A DNA stretch of 28,392 nt, taken from positions 1 to 28,392 of IMG/VR virus record IMGVR_UViG_3300013014_000099, one strand, 5' to 3'. Origin of the DNA: a virus. This document shows positions 10,817 to 23,748 of the stretch, piece by piece. The first letter of the stretch is position 1. The number at the start of each line of letters is the position of its first letter. Below the pieces are notes generated by a model. It was not told where the DNA came from, did no database searches, and was given only the letters and a program-made list of their open reading frames with translations. Made by a program: the position numbers and the translations under genes.

Positions 10817-13800
10817 ATGGCACTAGACCTTTCGATTGAACCATTCTTTGACGATTATTCTGAAGATAAAAAATTCCATAGAATTCTTTTTAGACCTGGA
10901 TACGCAGTTCAAGCGCGTGAATTAACTCAAATGCAGACTATTCTGCAAGAACAAATTCGTCGTCATGGAGATCATATATTCAAAGAAGGTGCAATGGTTA
11001 TTCCAGGTCAAGTTGCATATGACGTTGACTTGGGTTATGTTACAGTACTTGGTACAGCTTCGGCATTACTTAGTTTAAGTACATTAACCGGTAAAGTAAT
11101 AAAGAATTCAGCTGGACTTCTCGCTGTAGTTATATCACACGCATTAAAAACTACTACAGATCCTGACACTATTTTTGTAAAATATTTAAATTCTATTCAA
11201 AATTCAGCTGGTAATAATGTAAATACATTTTTACCAAATGATGTTATTTCTACAGTAGATAATCTATTATCTTATACTGTAGACGACGACGTAACTGCAG
11301 CAAATTCTTCAGGTGTTGTTGTTACTATTCCACCGATTGGAACTGCGTGTTCAGCAACTATTGCTCGTGGCGTATACTATATTAAAAAGAATTTCGTATT
11401 AGTAACTGACCAAACTATTATACTTGACAAATATACTAATACTCCAAGTTATAGAATTGGACTTCAATTAAGTGAAAGTGTAGTTTATCCTGAAGATGAT
11501 GAAAGTCTATTAGACAACGCTCTTGGATCTCCAAACTATTCAGCGCCTGGCTCTGCGCGATATTATATGGATTTAGTGTTATCTAAGAAAACATTGACAG
11601 ATACACAAGATTCAGATTTTATTGAATTATTACGATTAAATTCTGGTAAAGTGACATTTAAAATAGATCGTACTTTATATGCAGAAATAGAAAAAACACT
11701 TGCTCGTAGAACTTACGATGAATCCGGCGATTATACACTTTCTCCATTCACAATGTCTACACTAGAGTTTAGAAATAATCTACGTGGAGACTGGGCCGCT
11801 GGTGAAAAATTTGTTCAAGGCGATCTAATTAAAGTTCCAGATGGTGCTTTAGGATTTTATTATTTTGTTGCAACTACAAATGGAACAAGTGGTTCTATAA
11901 GACCAACAACGTTTACTCCAACAGTAGACTATGTAACCGATAATACTATCACTTGGGAATTCATGGTTAATCCCAATTTCAATCGTGGCGTTAACACCTT
12001 CACTGCTGGAGATCCTCTATATTCTGCATTTACTATAAACGATCACATTAGATTAAATGGAATGATTGCTATAGGAATTGAAGCTGGCAAAGCATATGTT
12101 CGTGGTTATGAAATTGCGAAAATATCAACTGAATATGTACCAGTATATAAGTCTAGATCTTTACCTGCTGGATCTACTGGAACTGGTTCATTAAGTCAAT
12201 ATTTTAATGTAACTTCTTTACCTGCAGTTACAGATTCGTTATCTGCAGAAAAAACTGCTAGTATAGATTTATCTAGTGGATCATATATTATATGTAATAC
12301 TATTAAGTATGTACCTAATGTAACAACGTTTCCCGCTATAAATTTACATAGTGCAGTTACTGCTTCTGCTGTACAAACTGGTGCCGGTTCAACTGTTATA
12401 GGTACTGCTAGAATTCGTGGAATTGAAAGACATGATGGTTCTAATACTGACTTCAAAGTATTTTTATTTGATATTAAAATGAATACTGGAAAGGACTTTG
12501 TTAATACAAAGTCTCTTGGTAATTCTACTACTTCATTCTCTGCAAATGCTATTCAGGTTTCTAGTCAAACTATTTTAGATAGTTCTTTAAGTACTTCTTT
12601 AATATACTCTATTCCACAATACGCAGTAGCAACCGTTACCGAATTAGATTATTCAGTAGTTGTACCATTCACACGAACTAGTACTGGTGGCACTACTTGG
12701 GATATAACTGCGCCGACTGGATACACATTTGAAAGCGTGGCAAATGCATCAACAAACTATATTCTTAGCAATGACGCTCTTGGGACGTTAGTATCTAGTC
12801 CAACATTAGTGGCTGGGACTGGCAATGCTAGTCTACAAATACAGGGACTAACTGCTGGTTATGTATACTCACTTTTAGCTACTATGAAAAGAGCTAACGT
12901 TGCCAGTCCACATATCAACCTTACTGTGACTGATGATCACGATGCTAATACAACGTCGGTTACAGCTACTCCAGTAACTATAGTTTTAAGTAAACCATTT
13001 GTTACCAGAATAGTTTCTGTAATGATGGATAGTCGTGGATTTACTCTTTCTGGCGGAGCTGCTAATACTTCTCCTATTTACAATACAGATATTACAAATA
13101 GATATTCGTTTAATTCTGAGCAATATACTACACATGCTGGAAAATCAACTATTACATTATTAGATCCAAGCACTCCACCAACTGGTCCAATTGATATTAA
13201 ATACGAATACCTTGCATTAGGCAGCGTAAATCCCGGTGGTATATTTGACGTAAACTCTTATACTCATAGTCAATCTAAAATTATCTATGATCAGATTTTC
13301 ATGGTGTCTAATTATGCGTTAAGAGATTCGCTTGACTTTAGACCAGTTGCTGCGCCAACTGATTTTATAGCAAAATACTTGCCAAAGTATGGTAGTACTG
13401 CATCTGTTAAATATATACATCATCTTGAAAGAATAGACAATATTTCATTATCTACTACCGGTGATTTTATTGTATCTAGAGGAATTCCTTCTATTACAGC
13501 ATCTGAACCTAAGATTCCGAATAATACTATGAAATTAGCAACTCTTGCTATTGAACCATACACATTTAATCGCGATAATAATATAGGATTGGTTATTAGT
13601 AGAACTGAAAATAAACGCTATACGATGCGTGACATTGGTAGATTAGAACGCAGAATTCAAGATCTCGAATATTATACAGCATTAACTCTATCTGAGATAG
13701 ATACTTCAAATATGCGTATAGTTGATAGTAACGGATTAGATAGATTCCAAAATGGATTTTTAGTAGATTCATTTAATGGGCAAGGCATTGGAAATGTTGC

Positions 13801-16800
13801 TTCGGAAGATTGGAATGCATCTATAGATTCTGCTAATAAAGAATTACGCCCATTCTTTTCACAAAAGCAAGTTACGTTAGTAGAAAATGTAAGTGCTACT
13901 ACTAGAGATTACAAAGTATCTGGTGATTTGGTTACATTACCATTCACAGAAGTAGACATGATTGTACAAGATAAAGCATCTATGTCTGTGAATTTAAATC
14001 CTTATGATTTATATAGTTGGAAAGGTATAGTAGACATTAACCCATGGTCTGACACTTGGTTTTCAACAACATATCGTCCTGATATTGTTTTAAATGATGA
14101 AGGACAATATAACGCTTTAGTAGCTAAAGCAGAACAAGATGGATCATTAGGAACAGTTTGGAATGCTTGGCAAGTAGTGTTTGCTTCTTCAAGCACAATA
14201 GGAACAAAATTACAAAGTATTGGCGCATGGTCACAAGCAGATACTGAGATTTTAAGTTCAGGCAATAATGGTGGTAGTTTTTGGCGAAATCGTGCTACAT
14301 TCACAACAGAAGAATTAGCTTTTATAGGCGCAACTTCGAATTTAAGTAGCGCGCAATCAAACGCTGCTGCTGGTTCACGAGTTGTTACGATTGAAACTAC
14401 CGCAGTAGAAACTCAGACTTCAAGAACAGGAACTAGAACTTTTATCACAGATAAAGTAGATTCGCGTATTTTAGAAGATAGAATAGTTGATACGTCTTTA
14501 GTTCCATATATTCGTCCACGAGCAGTACTATTCACTGGATATGGATTTAAGCCAGGTGTGGCAATGAATGCATTCTTTGACAATACTCTGGTAAATGATT
14601 ACATAACTCCTGTTACTAGAATTGAAATTACAGCAATAGATTCATATAGTAGCACTTTCGATGTTACTCGTAATGCAGGATCTGCGGTTTCAGATTCTAC
14701 TAGAACTGTGTTCTATTCAGATGGCGCAACGGTTACTGGAACTGTAGCATTAACGAATAACAGTAATATTGTAACTGGGACAGCTTCAGATTTTTTGAAA
14801 GATTTTGCAGTAGGTGACACATTAAACATTGGAACCAATGATGGCAATAATTATACAGTTACTGAAATAACTGGAATTTATAGTATGAAAATTAAACCTG
14901 TATATGCTGGTGCTTCTATCACAGGCGTTAGTGTAAAAGTTCAAGGACCTAAACATACTACACAAGAAGTTGAAGTTGCGTTTAATCACGGGGAAGTTAT
15001 TAAAGAATATGTTAATGGAGTTGCTACAGGCAATACGGCGATCGTAGTTGGACAAGAAATAGTAAACACAGTTGTTGAAGGATTCCATAGATATATTTTC
15101 GTTATGAATATTAAAGGCAATGGTCAGTTTTCAACTGCTACTGATTCATATTTAATAGGCGAGTATAACGTTGGCACTACTACAGTTAAACCTAGAGTCA
15201 AATTCTTAAACAAAACTAATTACTCTCAACTTATAACTACTGGTACTGGTTTATTACTTGGTACATTTAGAATCCCAAGTAACCCATCAATTAAATTTAG
15301 AACTGGTATTCGTGAATTAAGATTCTCAGACGACTTTTCTACTGTTCCATCGATTAGAACTGCTAGAGAACAGACTGGCGGCGGTGCTTTATACGAAGCT
15401 AATGGTTATCTAACTACTATGCAACGAACTATTGTTTCTACTAGAACTGCTACTTTAGTATCTGAGCAAACATCTGACAATAACACTGTAGTCACTAATA
15501 AAGATACAATGACTAGAGATACTGGTTGGTTCGATCCTCTTGCGCAAACATTCATGGTTCAACAAGAAGGAGGAGCGTTTATTACTTCTGTTGATTTATT
15601 CTTTGAAACTGCAGATCCAAAAATTCCAGTTCGCATAGAAATTCGTGAAGTTGTTAACGGATATCCTGGTAGCGCAGTTCTTCCATTCTCGAGAGTAGAG
15701 AAAAAAGGCGCATCAGTATTAACAAGTGCTAATGCTACAGTTGCTACAACGTTTAAATTTACATCTCCAGTGTTTGTACAGAATGGAGTTGAGTATGCTT
15801 TAGTTGCGTTATCAGATTGTAATTCGTTTAGGGTTCATATTTCGCAGACTGATACTGTTATGTATGATGGCGTAACTAGAATTTCTTCACAACCTTATAA
15901 TGGTGTGTTGTTCAAATCACAGAATGCTTCTACTTGGACTGCTGATCAAACGCAAGACATGAAGTTTACTATTCGTCGAGCACAGTTTTCTAGTACACCT
16001 TTGACTATCGAATTTATTCCACCTCCGTTAGGTATGCAAACACTTGGATTTAATCCATTTAATCTTATAAAGGACAGTAGAAAATGTAGGGTAGTTCATA
16101 AAAATCATGGTATGCGCACTGGAAACTATGTGAAATTTATAAGCAGCCAAGTTATTGATAGTATTAATGCTATACCTGCAGCTAATATATTTAACATAAA
16201 TCTGCAAATACTTGCAGTAGAATTAGATGCGTATGTCGTTGAATTTGCTGGGACAATTCCTTCAAGTGCCACTGGACGAGTAGGTGGTGGATTTATTAAA
16301 GCAAGCGAAAACTATGAGTTTGAAACGGCTATGATTGAGATGACTGAGATTGTTCCACCCGGAACTTCTATTTCATATGTGACAAAAGTTATTAATCATG
16401 CCGGTGTTGCAGCGTCATATCCTATGATTCCAAAAACAAACATTACATTTGAAGAAGAAAAAGTATATCCATCGTTAGTTAACTATACTAATAGTGCATT
16501 TCCAACTGGTTTAAGTGTTACTGCTACTTTAACACCATCATCAACACTTGACTCAGTTTCGCCGGTTATTGACGTGGCTAGACTTGCTATGACTATGGTA
16601 AGTAATAAAATTGATAGCCCAGATTTAACTGTTAACGATTCAACGTTAGACTATTTTCCAATTACTACAGTTGGTAGTCCTACTCAAATTGGATCTGGCA
16701 AGCCATTTACTCTTGTAAGTGATACTCTAGTTGTAAATTCTACATCTCAACCAACGTTATTCACCAATCTGAATAATAATGTAAATTCTGGTGACGTAAT

Positions 16801-17338
16801 AAGATTTGTGTATAGCGCTATTACTAATCCTGTTAGAAATATGGTTATAGTAGAAAAGAGTCAAGATTCTAGTGGAAATTTATTCTTAAAGCTTGAATCG
16901 TTTGATGGAACTCCTATGATAGTTGAAACAACTACTAATACTGTCGCTATGACATGGTTATCACACTTTAGATCTGAATATGCAGCAAGTGGTGGATCTA
17001 CTCATAGTAAGTATGTTACTAAGAAGATTAATTTCTCGCGCCCATCCGATATGTTGAAGATTATGTTTGCAGCAATTATTCCTCCTGCGGCAGATGTTGA
17101 AATATATTACAAGACTGGTGCTTCAGTATCTGGAGATTTCATAGCTTCAAGATATTATAAATTGACACCAGATTCTGGTTATGTAAAGTCTGAAACTGAA
17201 TTTACAGACATCACTGCTAGCGTAGAAAATCTATCACCGTTTGATAGTGTAATTATTAAGCTAGTTATGAAGTCTATAAATAAATCTAAAGTACCACGTA
17301 TTAAAAACTTTAGAGTAATTTCATGCGCAGCAGCATAA
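10817..17338 (+). CDS. Giant DUF4815-type virion structural protein (baseplate/fibre)
   Basis: At 2173 aa this is the largest protein here. Its N-terminus (SIEPFFDDYSEDKKFHRILF, then FRPGYAVQARELTQMQTIL, RRHGDHIFKEGAMVIPGQ) is the hallmark of DUF4815 proteins found in marine T4-like phages next to gp8. Other recognisable stretches are DSLDFRPVAAP near residue 836, the helical IGRLERRIQDLEYYTALTLSE near 940, VRGY-type turns, and near residue 1568 DTGWFDPLAQTFMVQQEGG followed by VRIEIREVVNGYPG. The last motif recurs, from memory, in T4-like phage baseplate proteins annotated as gp10-like. The position after gp8 is where T4 has genes 9, 10 and 11, so a wedge-periphery or fibre-base role is likely but inferred. 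The stop lies inside the next gene. There is no frameshift and the ribosome binding site is weak (AAAGAAAA). Confidence 0.8.
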   Translation: MALDLSIEPFFDDYSEDKKFHRILFRPGYAVQARELTQMQTILQEQIRRHGDHIFKEGAMVIPGQVAYDVDLGYVTVLGTASALLSLSTLTGKVIKNSAGLLAVVISHALKTTTDPDTIFVKYLNSIQNSAGNNVNTFLPNDVISTVDNLLSYTVDDDVTAANSSGVVVTIPPIGTACSATIARGVYYIKKNFVLVTDQTIILDKYTNTPSYRIGLQLSESVVYPEDDESLLDNALGSPNYSAPGSARYYMDLVLSKKTLTDTQDSDFIELLRLNSGKVTFKIDRTLYAEIEKTLARRTYDESGDYTLSPFTMSTLEFRNNLRGDWAAGEKFVQGDLIKVPDGALGFYYFVATTNGTSGSIRPTTFTPTVDYVTDNTITWEFMVNPNFNRGVNTFTAGDPLYSAFTINDHIRLNGMIAIGIEAGKAYVRGYEIAKISTEYVPVYKSRSLPAGSTGTGSLSQYFNVTSLPAVTDSLSAEKTASIDLSSGSYIICNTIKYVPNVTTFPAINLHSAVTASAVQTGAGSTVIGTARIRGIERHDGSNTDFKVFLFDIKMNTGKDFVNTKSLGNSTTSFSANAIQVSSQTILDSSLSTSLIYSIPQYAVATVTELDYSVVVPFTRTSTGGTTWDITAPTGYTFESVANASTNYILSNDALGTLVSSPTLVAGTGNASLQIQGLTAGYVYSLLATMKRANVASPHINLTVTDDHDANTTSVTATPVTIVLSKPFVTRIVSVMMDSRGFTLSGGAANTSPIYNTDITNRYSFNSEQYTTHAGKSTITLLDPSTPPTGPIDIKYEYLALGSVNPGGIFDVNSYTHSQSKIIYDQIFMVSNYALRDSLDFRPVAAPTDFIAKYLPKYGSTASVKYIHHLERIDNISLSTTGDFIVSRGIPSITASEPKIPNNTMKLATLAIEPYTFNRDNNIGLVISRTENKRYTMRDIGRLERRIQDLEYYTALTLSEIDTSNMRIVDSNGLDRFQNGFLVDSFNGQGIGNVASEDWNASIDSANKELRPFFSQKQVTLVENVSATTRDYKVSGDLVTLPFTEVDMIVQDKASMSVNLNPYDLYSWKGIVDINPWSDTWFSTTYRPDIVLNDEGQYNALVAKAEQDGSLGTVWNAWQVVFASSSTIGTKLQSIGAWSQADTEILSSGNNGGSFWRNRATFTTEELAFIGATSNLSSAQSNAAAGSRVVTIETTAVETQTSRTGTRTFITDKVDSRILEDRIVDTSLVPYIRPRAVLFTGYGFKPGVAMNAFFDNTLVNDYITPVTRIEITAIDSYSSTFDVTRNAGSAVSDSTRTVFYSDGATVTGTVALTNNSNIVTGTASDFLKDFAVGDTLNIGTNDGNNYTVTEITGIYSMKIKPVYAGASITGVSVKVQGPKHTTQEVEVAFNHGEVIKEYVNGVATGNTAIVVGQEIVNTVVEGFHRYIFVMNIKGNGQFSTATDSYLIGEYNVGTTTVKPRVKFLNKTNYSQLITTGTGLLLGTFRIPSNPSIKFRTGIRELRFSDDFSTVPSIRTAREQTGGGALYEANGYLTTMQRTIVSTRTATLVSEQTSDNNTVVTNKDTMTRDTGWFDPLAQTFMVQQEGGAFITSVDLFFETADPKIPVRIEIREVVNGYPGSAVLPFSRVEKKGASVLTSANATVATTFKFTSPVFVQNGVEYALVALSDCNSFRVHISQTDTVMYDGVTRISSQPYNGVLFKSQNASTWTADQTQDMKFTIRRAQFSSTPLTIEFIPPPLGMQTLGFNPFNLIKDSRKCRVVHKNHGMRTGNYVKFISSQVIDSINAIPAANIFNINLQILAVELDAYVVEFAGTIPSSATGRVGGGFIKASENYEFETAMIEMTEIVPPGTSISYVTKVINHAGVAASYPMIPKTNITFEEEKVYPSLVNYTNSAFPTGLSVTATLTPSSTLDSVSPVIDVARLAMTMVSNKIDSPDLTVNDSTLDYFPITTVGSPTQIGSGKPFTLVSDTLVVNSTSQPTLFTNLNNNVNSGDVIRFVYSAITNPVRNMVIVEKSQDSSGNLFLKLESFDGTPMIVETTTNTVAMTWLSHFRSEYAASGGSTHSKYVTKKINFSRPSDMLKIMFAAIIPPAADVEIYYKTGASVSGDFIASRYYKLTPDSGYVKSETEFTDITASVENLSPFDSVIIKLVMKSINKSKVPRIKNFRVISCAAA
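17275..17282 (+). promoter_or_regulatory. Probable late promoter inside the end of the DUF4815 gene
   Basis: An exact TATAAATA ends 40 bases before ATG 17323. In T4 the start of transcription lies roughly six bases past the box, so the leader would be about 35 bases. The site is coding (SINKSK), so it may be chance, but the spacing to the next gene is ideal. Confidence 0.4.
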
Positions 17339-19470: not shown

Positions 19471-21594
19471 ATGATAGAAGCTCTTTGGAACGGTAACAGT
19501 CAATATATACGTTTAACATCTACTGTTGATTGCGCTGTAAATTTTGCAATCGTAGGTGCTGGCGGCGGCGGTGGCGGAGCGGATGCCGGGCGTGAAGGCA
19601 GCGCTGGACTTCCGGGTAAACGTGTAATCGGGAAAGTAACTTTGAACGCAGGTAATTATATTACTTGTGTTCTTGGTCAGGGCGGATTTGCAGGTCAGAG
19701 TAATGCCGGCACTGCGGCAGGAGGCGTTGGAGGTTTTGGCGAGCTTTATAACGGTAATAGCTTTTGCGGCGGCACCGGAGGAAATGGTGGGCCTTATGGC
19801 GGCAGTGGAGGTGGTGGAGGAGGAGGTGCTGCTACTACTCTTCGATATGGTAGTGGTAACCTTATTGTTGGAGTTGCTGCAGGAGGAGGAGGCGGCGGCG
19901 GCGCTGGTATTAACTCTAATGGTTATATTAAATCATATGATCCGTATTTAGAAGTATCACAGACTTCAGCAAATAATACTGCAGGAGGTAAAGGCTTAAA
20001 TCATCGATATGATGGTGGTGGCGCAGGCGGAGGTGGAGGCGGATTACCTTCTGGTAGTGGTGGAATTTGGTCAGCTGACTACGACACGGGCGCAATGTCT
20101 GGTTCTACTGGCTATAGTTCTTGGGCAATTGGGACAACGCAAGAAGCTTATTTTTCAACAATTTTAGCTTCTAATAGTAATTATATAAATGCTGGAGCTG
20201 GTGGTGCGCCCCGCTCTAATGGTCAAGGTGGTTATGCTATATTTTCTTCAACTATACTTCTTACAAATGTAAGAAATACAACAAATTCAGGTTGGGTAAA
20301 TCCTTATTTAATTTATGTACGACATGGAAATGCTTGGACTACAGTAAATGAAGCATATATAAGAGCGAATAATTCATGGGTTAAAATTTTTGGTGATAAC
20401 CCACTTAATACTGCAATAACATTTGCAACTGTTACTAATATCACAGGTCCAATGTCTTCATATCCACCAGCATATGTAGCTCCCGTGGTGCAGAATACTG
20501 GTAAAGGCTCGTTCGGCGCGCGAGATTGGGGAGATACTGAATCTACTCCTTCGCGTGGTGGTTACACATCCTCCCCGTCTGTTGGCAGCGATGGTAGTGT
20601 TGGAGGAGGTAGTGGTATGGGTCCTGCTAATGGACCTGCTACATGTTTTGTAAAAGGTACATTAGTTACACTAGAAGATAATACTAAAGTTGCTATTGAA
20701 GATGTCAAAATCGGTGATAGAGTAAAAGGTTTAAACACTATTAATAATGTGTTAGGATTTGATCGTCCTATGTTGATTATCGATAATGTGCGTGATGGCG
20801 ATCTTTATGGTATTAATGGATTAGAAAAATTTGTAACTGCTGAACATCCTATAATGACTAAACAAGGATGGAAATCTATTGATAAAGAACACGCCGTAAA
20901 ATTTGATCCACACTTAAGTGAAATATTAATAGGTAGTCTTGAAGTTGGCGATGAAATTTTAACAGAAACTGGATCAATAGTTATTGATAGTATAGAAAAA
21001 TATGAAGATCAACCACAGCAACTATTATATAATCTATTATTAGATGGTAATCATACATATTATGCTAATAGTTTACTTGTGCATAATAAAGGCGCGCCGG
21101 GTGTAAGTCCAGGAGGTGGTCCTCCATGTCATGCACCATGGACTAGAATAACACTGCCTGATGGTTCATATAAACAAATACGAGATATTCAAGTAGGCGA
21201 GTTGATTCAAGGTAATGGATGTGTCAATAGTGTGATAACTTCAGTGGCACTATACTCTACATCTAGATTAGTTTCGTTTAATGATATTGGTTATTTTGTA
21301 ACTGAAACCCATCCTATGCTTACTGATATTGGATGGGGCGCGTTTAATCCAATGCTATTAAAATTACAGACTCCTTCATATTACGAGCAATTGAAAGCAA
21401 ATAACAATGGAAAAGATTTAGTTACAATAAGCGAAGGTTCTAATTTAGCATATTACGTAAATAATAGCATAGTATATAACTCAGTAAGTAACGTACAATA
21501 TGAAAGTGGAGATAACTTTATGGTATACCGACTTAATGTATCGGGCAATGATACATTTATTGCTGAAAATATAATTTCGCATAACAAATGGTAA
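19471..21594 (+). CDS. Polyglycine adhesin-like tail protein with two tandem Hint (intein-type) domains
   Basis: A 707-aa protein. Residues 1-27 form a beta segment (WNGNSQYIRLTSTVDCAVNF). Residues 28-255 are dominated by glycine runs (31-36, 113-119, 138-144, 186-191), as in glycine-rich phage adhesins. Residues 282-308 carry a YVRHGNAWTTVNEAYIRANN surface motif with WVK, followed by a linker rich in Gly, Pro and Ser. Hint domain 1 spans 392-539: Cys392 (CFVKGTLVTLEDN), IEDVKIGDRV, Thr456-x-x-His459 (VTAEHPIM), and the end LLVHNK (His538, Asn539). Hint domain 2 spans 553-705: Cys553 (CHAPWTRITLPDGSYKQI), Thr611-x-x-His614 (VTETHPML), and SHNKW at the very end (His704, Asn705). These are the catalytic residues of inteins and bacterial intein-like domains; no homing endonuclease fits in either. 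I infer self-cleavage that frees the adhesin part. The ribosome binding site is poor. Confidence 0.85.
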   Translation: MIEALWNGNSQYIRLTSTVDCAVNFAIVGAGGGGGGADAGREGSAGLPGKRVIGKVTLNAGNYITCVLGQGGFAGQSNAGTAAGGVGGFGELYNGNSFCGGTGGNGGPYGGSGGGGGGGAATTLRYGSGNLIVGVAAGGGGGGGAGINSNGYIKSYDPYLEVSQTSANNTAGGKGLNHRYDGGGAGGGGGGLPSGSGGIWSADYDTGAMSGSTGYSSWAIGTTQEAYFSTILASNSNYINAGAGGAPRSNGQGGYAIFSSTILLTNVRNTTNSGWVNPYLIYVRHGNAWTTVNEAYIRANNSWVKIFGDNPLNTAITFATVTNITGPMSSYPPAYVAPVVQNTGKGSFGARDWGDTESTPSRGGYTSSPSVGSDGSVGGGSGMGPANGPATCFVKGTLVTLEDNTKVAIEDVKIGDRVKGLNTINNVLGFDRPMLIIDNVRDGDLYGINGLEKFVTAEHPIMTKQGWKSIDKEHAVKFDPHLSEILIGSLEVGDEILTETGSIVIDSIEKYEDQPQQLLYNLLLDGNHTYYANSLLVHNKGAPGVSPGGGPPCHAPWTRITLPDGSYKQIRDIQVGELIQGNGCVNSVITSVALYSTSRLVSFNDIGYFVTETHPMLTDIGWGAFNPMLLKLQTPSYYEQLKANNNGKDLVTISEGSNLAYYVNNSIVYNSVSNVQYESGDNFMVYRLNVSGNDTFIAENIISHNKW
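20644..21087 (+). other. Hint domain 1 coding segment
   Basis: Codons 392-539, from the Cys codon at 20644 to the Asn codon ending at 21087. At 148 residues it is the size of a minimal intein without endonuclease. It is followed by a 13-residue linker KGAPGVSPGGGPP before Hint 2. Confidence 0.8.
21127..21585 (+). other. Hint domain 2 coding segment
   Basis: Codons 553-705, from the Cys codon at 21127 to the Asn codon ending at 21585. Only Lys-Trp follows before the stop. By eye it shares the catalytic frame with Hint 1 but little other sequence, so the pair is not a recent duplication. Confidence 0.75.
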
Positions 21595-21690: not shown

Positions 21691-23748
21691 ATGGCATTTT
21701 TAACATTTAGAGCTTCTAGTAGTCCTACGATTCCAACCGTCACTACGGTTAGTACAACTGGATTGACTAACCTTCAGGTTGATGGTAATTTTGCCTCGTT
21801 GGATAGTGCGAAGTACGAAAAGACTGGTGGCGCCATTTCAGGTGACGTTGCAATCACCGGTAGTTTAAGTACTAGTGGAAATTCCGTAACTATAAACTCT
21901 ACCAATGTATTGGTAAGTGATAATAATATATCTATTGGATCTGTAGTAGCAGTTAATGCGTTATCTGGTGCTATTAGTAATAACGCTGGAAGTGGAAGTG
22001 CTTGGACTGCTACAGTCACTATGACTTCTCCATCAACCACAGCTGGTCTTATTCCAGGCACAATATTAACAAAGACTACCGGAGTTGGTATTTTTGGTGC
22101 TAATGCAGTTATTACTAGTGTTGTTAGTTTAACACAGATGACAATCTCAAGCACCTCAACAAATACTAATGGTGCTTTATCATTCAACACTGGAGTAGCT
22201 AGTGACCTAACTGCAAATGGTGGTGGCATTACTTTAAAAAGTGTGATTGATAAAAGTATCATCTGGGATAGTACAAATTCTAACTGGACGTCTAGCGAAA
22301 ACTGGAATATTGTTACTGGAAAAGAATTTAAGATTAATAATGTTTCTGTTCTTAATGCTACTACTCTTGGCAGTGTTATAACTTCTTCTAGTTTAACTTC
22401 GGTTGGAACAATTGCCACTGGCACCTGGACTGCGAATACAATTGCTTCTGCTTATGGCGGTACTGGATATAGCACATACGCAGCTGGAGATATTCTATAT
22501 GCATCAGCTACTAACGTTTTATCAAAATTGCCAAAGGCTACTAATGGTAATGTTCTTATGCTTGTTGCTGGAGTACCTGCTTGGGCAGCAGAAGCAGATA
22601 CATTAGCGACAGTCACCGGTCGTGGTGCTACCACAGCAACCGCACTAACAATTACAAATGCTACCTCATCTGCTTTAACTGTTACTGGCGGCGTAACCAT
22701 TGGCGGTGACTTAGTCGTTAATGGAACTACGACAAGTATCAATTCTACTATTTTAACTGTAGATGACAAGAATATAGAACTTGGTTTTGCATCAGCACTT
22801 ACAAATCTATCTGGTTCGATCGTTACCAGCGCAATAGCAAGCGCACTTACTATGACTAGTACAGCCGGACTTATTCCAGGAATGGTATTAACTAAAGTAT
22901 CAGGCACCGGTGTATTTGGTGGTGTAACAACTATTACTAGCGTAGATAGCGCAACACAGATTACAATAGGTGGTACTACAGCTAATACTCTAGGAGCATT
23001 AGTATTTAATGCCGGAGGTGTCAGTGACCTTACTGCTAATGGCGGTGGTATTACGTTAAAAGGCACATCTGATAAGACTATCAGTTGGGATAGTACAAAT
23101 TCTAACTGGTCGTCAAGTGAGCATTGGAACATTGCAACTGGAAAATCATTTAAGATTAATAACACTGCAGTTCTAAGTGCTGGTAGTGTAAACGTAGCTA
23201 ATGGCACATTTACAACTATTACACTTGGTACAGCGGGAATTAATGCTACTAATGGTTATAATATAAGTGGCACACAAAATGGTGGTGCAATTGAAATAAG
23301 AACAAATGGTGGTACTACTGATCGTGGTTGGCGTCTAGGTATGCGAGATGCTGGTAGTGGTTTTACAGAGCACGTATCATATTTAGAATCTGCTGGAAAT
23401 GTAGTAAAATTCTTTACTAATATAACGGCAACTGGTACTATAGACGGCACCACATTCAATTCTACTTCTGACGTTCGCTTAAAATCAGAGATTGAAGTAA
23501 TTGAAAACGCACTGGATAAAACACTAAGTCTTAATGGATATACATTCTTACTTAATTCTGATAAATCAAAACGTCAAACAGGCTTACTCGCACAAGAAGT
23601 TCTTAAAGTTCTTCCTGAAGCAGTAAGCGGCACTGAAGACACACACTATAGCGTTTCATATGGAAACGTCGTTGGTCTATTAATTGAAGCAATTAAAGAA
23701 TTAAACACAAAAGTAACTGATCTACAAAATCAACTTGCTAATAAATAA
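21691..23748 (+). CDS. Tail fibre with duplicated shaft module and S74-type intramolecular chaperone
   Basis: A 685-aa protein. Residues 53-222 and 331-496 are a duplicated module (TINSTNVLVSDNNISIG and SINSTILTVDDKNIELG; SDLTANGGGITLK; DSTNSNW(T/S)SSE(N/H)WNI; K(E/S)FKINN). Each copy is interrupted by an insert of 77-85 residues. Between them lies a fibre motif, AYGGTGYSTYAAGDILYASA (254-273). The C-terminus is a peptidase S74 / intramolecular chaperone domain: SDVRLKSEIEVIENALDK from Ser593-Asp594, then YTFLLNSDKSKRQTGLLAQE and a final coiled coil (LLIEAIKELNTKVTDLQNQL). In this family the Ser-Asp pair cuts the chain just before the Ser after trimer folding, so residues 593-685 would be released. 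It has its own late promoter and a weak ribosome binding site. Confidence 0.88.
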   Translation: MAFLTFRASSSPTIPTVTTVSTTGLTNLQVDGNFASLDSAKYEKTGGAISGDVAITGSLSTSGNSVTINSTNVLVSDNNISIGSVVAVNALSGAISNNAGSGSAWTATVTMTSPSTTAGLIPGTILTKTTGVGIFGANAVITSVVSLTQMTISSTSTNTNGALSFNTGVASDLTANGGGITLKSVIDKSIIWDSTNSNWTSSENWNIVTGKEFKINNVSVLNATTLGSVITSSSLTSVGTIATGTWTANTIASAYGGTGYSTYAAGDILYASATNVLSKLPKATNGNVLMLVAGVPAWAAEADTLATVTGRGATTATALTITNATSSALTVTGGVTIGGDLVVNGTTTSINSTILTVDDKNIELGFASALTNLSGSIVTSAIASALTMTSTAGLIPGMVLTKVSGTGVFGGVTTITSVDSATQITIGGTTANTLGALVFNAGGVSDLTANGGGITLKGTSDKTISWDSTNSNWSSSEHWNIATGKSFKINNTAVLSAGSVNVANGTFTTITLGTAGINATNGYNISGTQNGGAIEIRTNGGTTDRGWRLGMRDAGSGFTEHVSYLESAGNVVKFFTNITATGTIDGTTFNSTSDVRLKSEIEVIENALDKTLSLNGYTFLLNSDKSKRQTGLLAQEVLKVLPEAVSGTEDTHYSVSYGNVVGLLIEAIKELNTKVTDLQNQLANK
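21940..22194 (+). repeat. Insert module, copy A
   Basis: Residues 84-168 of the S74 fibre lie between NNISIG and ASDLTANGGG. Core words are WTATVTM, STTAGLIPGTILTK, GVGIFG, ITSVVSLTQMTIS and NGALSFN. Boundaries are approximate. Confidence 0.7.
22786..23016 (+). repeat. Insert module, copy B
   Basis: Residues 366-442 of the same fibre lie between KNIELG and VSDLTANGGG. Core words are ALTMTSTAGLIPGMVLTK, GTGVFG, ITSVDSATQITIG and LGALVFN, closely matching copy A. Confidence 0.7.

Follow-up and report, generated by a model that had tools for sequence, protein, structure and literature searches.

A Tail-Region Protein from an Uncultivated Virus Ends in Two Tandem Hint Domains That Resemble Type A BIL Domains

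Introduction

Among described systems, the bacterial intein-like (BIL) domains of type A come closest to the domains reported here. They form a thioester and undergo Asn cyclisation, and the freed amine occasionally ligates, with cleavage as the dominant outcome (PMC4031507, PMC7765530). Type A BIL domains without a nucleophile at the +1 position, the residue after the terminal Asn, mainly cleave and sometimes splice, and the ligation route runs via the alpha-amine (PMC4031507).

Inteins require Cys, Ser or Thr at +1, have a C-extein and are usually located in conserved sites of enzymes. The Hedgehog Hog domain is a C-terminal Hint that uses its first Cys (Cys1) and block B and has no His-Asn end. 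Phage fibres can bear a different C-terminal module, the Peptidase_S74 (endosialidase-type) chaperone domain, which folds the fibre and is then cut off. This domain is self-cleaving, and it is unrelated to Hint in both fold and chemistry.

Here, we analysed a stretch of 28,392 nucleotides (the window; positions 1 to 28,392 of IMG/VR virus record IMGVR_UViG_3300013014_000099). The initial annotation had proposed two Hint domains on a "polyglycine adhesin" as a device for self-processing or covalent attachment, and had called the pair possibly little described. The last point was borne out by the open literature (subscription papers and preprints were outside the scope), in which we found no account of phage virion proteins that bear BIL-type Hints. 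The new finding is that the pair belongs to a large Hint family of uncultivated viruses, which extends far beyond the pair itself.

Results and Discussion

Layout of the Protein and Its Two Hint Domains

According to the ORF list and its translation, the 707-residue protein is encoded at 19471..21594 (plus strand, as are its parts listed below) and consists of a Gly-rich N-terminus and two C-terminal Hint domains. Residues 1–391 (20643 being the last nucleotide of 19471..20643) contain 24% Gly with runs of 6–7 Gly, and a Gly/Pro-rich linker closing with GPANGPAT directly precedes Cys392. Hint 1 covers residues 392–539, from C392 to H538 and N539 (20644..21087; Pfam Vint, AF2/Foldseek and relatives), and residue 392 does lie at nucleotide 20644, as first annotated. 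Its block B is TAEH at residues 456–459 (T456 and H459; 20836..20847, from the motif position). The 13-residue linker between the two Hints is KGAPGVSPGGGPP, with the +1 residue Lys540 as its first letter (21088..21126). Hint 2, a divergent copy, covers residues 553–705, from C553 to H704 and N705 (21127..21585; Pfam, copy alignment and AF2 model), and its block B is TETH at residues 611–614 (T611 and H614; 21301..21312, from the motif position). The +1 residue Lys706 and the C-terminal Trp707 (21586..21591) make up the entire C-terminal flank of Hint 2.

The protein twice shows the layout C-(55-75)-[TS]xxH-(70-95)-HN. When the protein was shuffled (n = 20,000), the layout occurred at least once in 106 cases and at least twice in 11. 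The Pfam profile matches are far stronger evidence. Vint (PF14623) matched Hint 1 above the cut-off (1.7e-10), Intein_splicing (PF14890) matched below it (7e-7), most strongly in a stretch of Hint 2, and PT-HINT gave a weak match below the cut-off. The two copies share 26% identity (pairwise E = 2e-15). The AlphaFold model of residues 385–707, for which an alignment of 34 tandem pairs was used as input, had a mean pLDDT of 90.2 and two mainly-beta lobes, which match solved Hint folds. Foldseek ranked Tetrahymena BIL2 first (2.9e-9), then the gp41-1 intein and 2LWY, with hedgehog 1AT0 lower. A profile built from eight relatives had its best match among PDB sequences in 2LWY (a BIL domain, 7e-13), followed by Tetrahymena BIL2 and then the DnaB and gp41-1 inteins. 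Residues 392–539 and 553–705 are two complete Hint domains, and the tandem, divergent pair with intact Cys, TxxH and His-Asn stands as initially annotated. Among the BFVD matches, uncultured Caudovirales contribute a "Hint domain containing protein", so that single family members have been named earlier, probably by annotation software.

The gene is located among other tail genes. Pfam and PHROGs identified its neighbourhood as T4-like tail genes, including a gp5-like hub, a gp6-like wedge and an S74-type fibre. The gp6 of the window virus shares just 37–38% identity with its nearest counterparts, those of Pelagibacter phage Mosig, Methylophilales phage Melnitz and HTVC008M. We also observed that the next gene after the Hint gene (21691-23748) has a C-terminal Peptidase_S74 chaperone domain, so that two kinds of C-terminal processing module on tail-region proteins adjoin in the window.

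For the N-terminal 391 residues, no relatives and no Pfam profile, PDB-sequence or phage match were found, in searches that low-complexity filtering weakens. The likeness to T2-type gp38 consists of the Gly runs only. Of the "polyglycine adhesin", the Gly-rich character and the tail region held, and the protein can be described no further than as a "Gly-rich tail-region protein".

Comparison with Described Hint Classes

The window Hints share with the type A BIL domain of Clostridium thermocellum (2LWY) the fold, Cys1, the Thr and His of block B (TxxH), the terminal His-Asn (H538-N539 and H704-N705) and the lack of a +1 nucleophile, with Lys540 and Lys706 in place of Cys, Ser or Thr. Both are short, endonuclease-free and found in variable proteins. 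The nearest solved relatives are BIL domains, namely 2LWY by profile and Tetrahymena BIL2 (6Y75) by fold, the latter taken as a BIL with type A or B unspecified. Type B BIL domains lack the intein-like block G, which is present here as VHN and SHN. Judged by these features, the window Hints appear to fit type A BIL domains. However, they differ from them in the conserved Lys/Arg at +1, in arrays where HNK runs directly into the next Cys, in the frequent absence of a C-terminal flank, and in being borne by phage tail proteins and other unannotated viral proteins.

Class 1 mini-inteins (gp41-1, DnaB) have the Hint fold, Cys1, TxxH and His-Asn in common with the window Hints. However, a canonical intein was ruled out, because the residue after Asn is Lys in both copies and because the C-flank is nearly absent, with a stop after KW where a C-extein is needed. 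A conserved host protein is also lacking, since no relatives were found for the N-terminal region. At 148 and 153 residues, the Hints have no insert space for a homing endonuclease, which is a criterion for full-size inteins only. Hog (1AT0) resembles the window Hints in its C-terminal position and in the use of Cys1 and block B, but it lacks the His-Asn end, and the sterol recognition region that follows its Hint has no counterpart in a chain that terminates in KW. For the same reason, no toxin domain follows as it does in PT-HINT of polymorphic toxins, with which the weak Pfam match is shared.

We searched 50,697 annotated phage records, and none of the matches was an HNK-type Hint on a virion protein, unannotated matches being partly examined. 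The matches were mostly helicase or terminase inteins, fibres without His-Asn, or unannotated proteins. Among the matches read, which exclude those in two Ruminococcus phages and a few further ones, the tail-region relatives were all fibres, borne by Achromobacter phages JWF and 2-1 and by Providencia phage PSTNGR1. Like the window protein, these are phage tail-region proteins with a C-terminal Hint; unlike it, all lack His-Asn and end differently. In the two Achromobacter phages (2-1, L205:5083-8589; JWF, L208:2077-5598), a radical SAM gene lies one gene after the fibre gene. In both it is a possible modification partner, and in JWF it is annotated as an anaerobic sulfatase-maturating enzyme.

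The Viral Hint Family and the Residue after His-Asn

Scanning IMG/VR together with genomes of bacteria and archaea gave about 200 loci (L numbers). We then searched with a profile from which the +1 residue had been left out, and obtained a non-redundant set (<70% identity) of 84 viral and 38 cellular domains. The +1 residue was counted in the 75 viral domains with a His-Asn end, known inteins being left out. It was Lys in 59 and Arg in 10 of them (69/75), against a K+R background of 8% in the Hint-bearing viral proteins. No K/R enrichment was found at positions +2 to +4, and Cys, Ser or Thr occupied +1 in a single domain (1/75). The block-B His was invariant in these 75 domains. Cys1 and HN were invariant as well, partly by construction, because the counted domains were picked for the HN end and most loci were found via a pattern with a Cys-Phe start.

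The rule also holds where almost nothing follows. Among domains within about 6 residues of the protein end, 17/20 viral and 10/11 cellular ones carry HN[K/R], and 12 non-redundant domains (80% level) end exactly in HNK-stop or HNR-stop. Tandem domains join as HNK followed directly by CF, with the Cys of the next Hint at +2 or +3 in 19/76 viral domains and four copies in the array of L057. The longest array, at L166:1571-7084, is a single ORF of 1838 aa with seven Hint domains and mostly direct joins of HNK to CFIAG. Pairing of the +1 Lys/Arg with the acidic residue of TxxH was tried as a reason for the conservation and rejected, no association being found (Fisher p = 0.35).

The Hint domains are under purifying selection. 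The median dN/dS among related domains was 0.18 (354 non-independent pairs), and dN/dS was 0.22/1.05 for window Hint 1 versus L003. Some relatives keep Cys1 and lack HN, namely L009 and the second copy of L001. The second copies of L025-L031 and L038-L053 start with Cys (CF[VIL]xGT), have no His-Asn and align with the model in its N-terminal part only; they are apparently a derived domain class. Cellular C-terminal Hints with ANGILVHNK plus a few residues occur in L114, L116, L117, L131, L133 and others of L100-L139, and many of the L100-L139 proteins are from Flavobacteriia.

A PHROGs search with the Hints and most Hint-bearing N-termini gave no informative match, and several N-termini in the family are without a PHROG or Pfam match. 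The phrog_358 assignment, the collagen-like or Gly-rich context and the gene order suggest that most of the Hint-bearing proteins may be virion proteins. Beside the Hint genes, no conserved partner or acceptor gene was found beyond tail-gene synteny.

Origin of the Pair

Hint 1 has a best-segment identity of 57–71% to L001-L003 and of 62% to L021. The N-terminal parts of the window protein, L001, L003 and L021 have no mutual similarity, and in each of them a low-complexity Gly/Pro linker with a final Thr precedes the Hint Cys. The Hints are thus mobile modules borne by unrelated N-terminal regions. In the tree, Hint 1 groups with L001 (support 100/99) and Hint 2 falls within another supported clade (99/93), which means that two lineages contributed to the pair. 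A recent duplication in place is ruled out by the 26% identity and the separate clades. Hint 2 has a long branch (1.93) and an atypical start (CHAPWT), and its function may be weak.

Hint Arrays in the Large Tail Protein

The window also encodes a large tail protein of 2173 aa (ORF 10817-17338) with a DUF4815 match. Its Hint-bearing relatives belong to phrog_358. They contain 1–4 Hints placed 0–3 residues before DPLAQ[T/S]F (L032, L047, L055, L057, L062, L063 and others). The site is empty in the window, where DPLAQTF (15533..15553, plus strand) lies in GWFDPLAQTF with no insert. A query of the joined flanks, representing the empty site, found 1,107 phage records with a match that covers >80% of it.

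At five loci (L005, L024, L070, L071, L147), the large tail gene is split at the Hint site. The Hints close the first half, and the second half begins anew as a gene in its own right, with a start just before LAQTF. Since the downstream half is on another chain, the Hints cannot splice to it in cis, and yet they persist, which favours cleavage over splicing. The splits themselves could be ordinary gene fission.

Proposed Processing and Alternative Explanations

The self-processing that was initially proposed is well supported as an inference from the conserved catalytic residues across the 75 viral domains, from purifying selection and from the gene splits; the covalent attachment proposed beside it is a possibility only. 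We favour, as the probable explanation, a tail-region protein with two C-terminal autoprocessing domains of type A BIL likeness, in which maturation would be dominated by cleavage. Each Hint would form a thioester at its own Cys (391/392 and 552/553) by an N-to-S acyl shift assisted by the block-B Thr and His, and, through cyclisation of its Asn, would cut the chain at its C-terminal side (between N539 and K540, and between N705 and K706). The Hints would be removed after folding or assembly, and cleavage at Cys392 would leave residues 1–391 as the mature protein, the chain ending at about Thr391. In a minor share, the freed Lys amine may re-ligate to the thioester, so that the Hint is replaced by Lys. 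We infer cleavage, its timing and its purpose; the likeliest use would be the one-time maturation of an exposed virion protein, as with the S74 fibre chaperones.

The +1 residue makes canonical splicing unlikely. However, C-terminal cleavage alone would not need Asn and Lys to be kept at HNK-stop ends, and thus leaves this conservation unexplained. Besides cleavage, ligation of the Lys or a part in catalysis would also fit the Lys/Arg kept at protein ends.

One alternative is true splicing or lysine transfer, in which Asn cyclisation would free the +1 Lys and its amine would attack the thioester, releasing the Hint and joining Lys or Lys-Trp to the upstream chain; in tandem arrays one Lys per Hint would remain. 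The retention of K/R even at protein ends and the close HN-K-C spacing speak for it, as do the ligation by type A BIL domains via the alpha-amine (PMC4031507) and the Hint-less homologues of the large tail protein, which are continuous chains such as splicing would restore. However, split genes retain Hints with no downstream half to join in cis, known type A BIL domains mostly cleave, and Arg in 10/75 domains makes it doubtful that a Lys side-chain nucleophile is strictly needed. We regard this explanation as unlikely.

We hold it to be distinctly unlikely that the Hints of this widespread virus family, which has bacterial relatives, form a lysine-coupled class with the kept +1 Lys/Arg as part of the chemistry. 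Tandem arrays on virion proteins would then work as single-use ligases, capping, branching or cross-linking tail proteins during assembly or anchoring them to the host surface.

Still more doubtful is a Hog-like transfer, in which an outside nucleophile (amine, sugar or lipid) attacks the thioester and the tail protein becomes covalently fixed to a virion protein or the host surface. The C-terminal position and the intact Cys1 and TxxH would suit it, Hog requires the N-terminal step only, and the relatives that keep Cys1 and lack HN (the L001 second copy, L009 and the JWF, 2-1 and PSTNGR1 fibres) resemble Hog. However, no acceptor-binding region follows the Hint in a protein that terminates in KW, the Hint genes have no conserved neighbour besides tail-gene synteny, and HN, which is dispensable for Hog, is retained in most copies. 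That the Hints are no longer catalytic and serve as beta-rich binding or spacer modules in the style of Ig-like domains is very improbable. The tandem arrays, shuffling, terminal positions and loss of HN in some copies do resemble decoration modules, but neither the invariant block-B His of the HN-ending copies nor the kept +1 K/R is expected of a binding module.

Conclusions

Hints recur, single or up to seven in a row, on tail and other unannotated proteins of many uncultivated viruses, which suggests that trimming or re-joining may be part of how these viruses process them. The +1 Lys/Arg rule, which holds even at the end of a chain, poses a clear chemical puzzle, and the cultured phages with an HN-less Hint offer a laboratory entry point. 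Protein engineering could also gain small new domains from the family, for self-cleavage or ligation. If the cleavage-dominated explanation is true, single-use autocatalytic domains would process tail proteins in many uncultivated tailed phages, and the maturation of tail proteins by autocatalytic Hints would be a route for which our search of the open literature gave no account.
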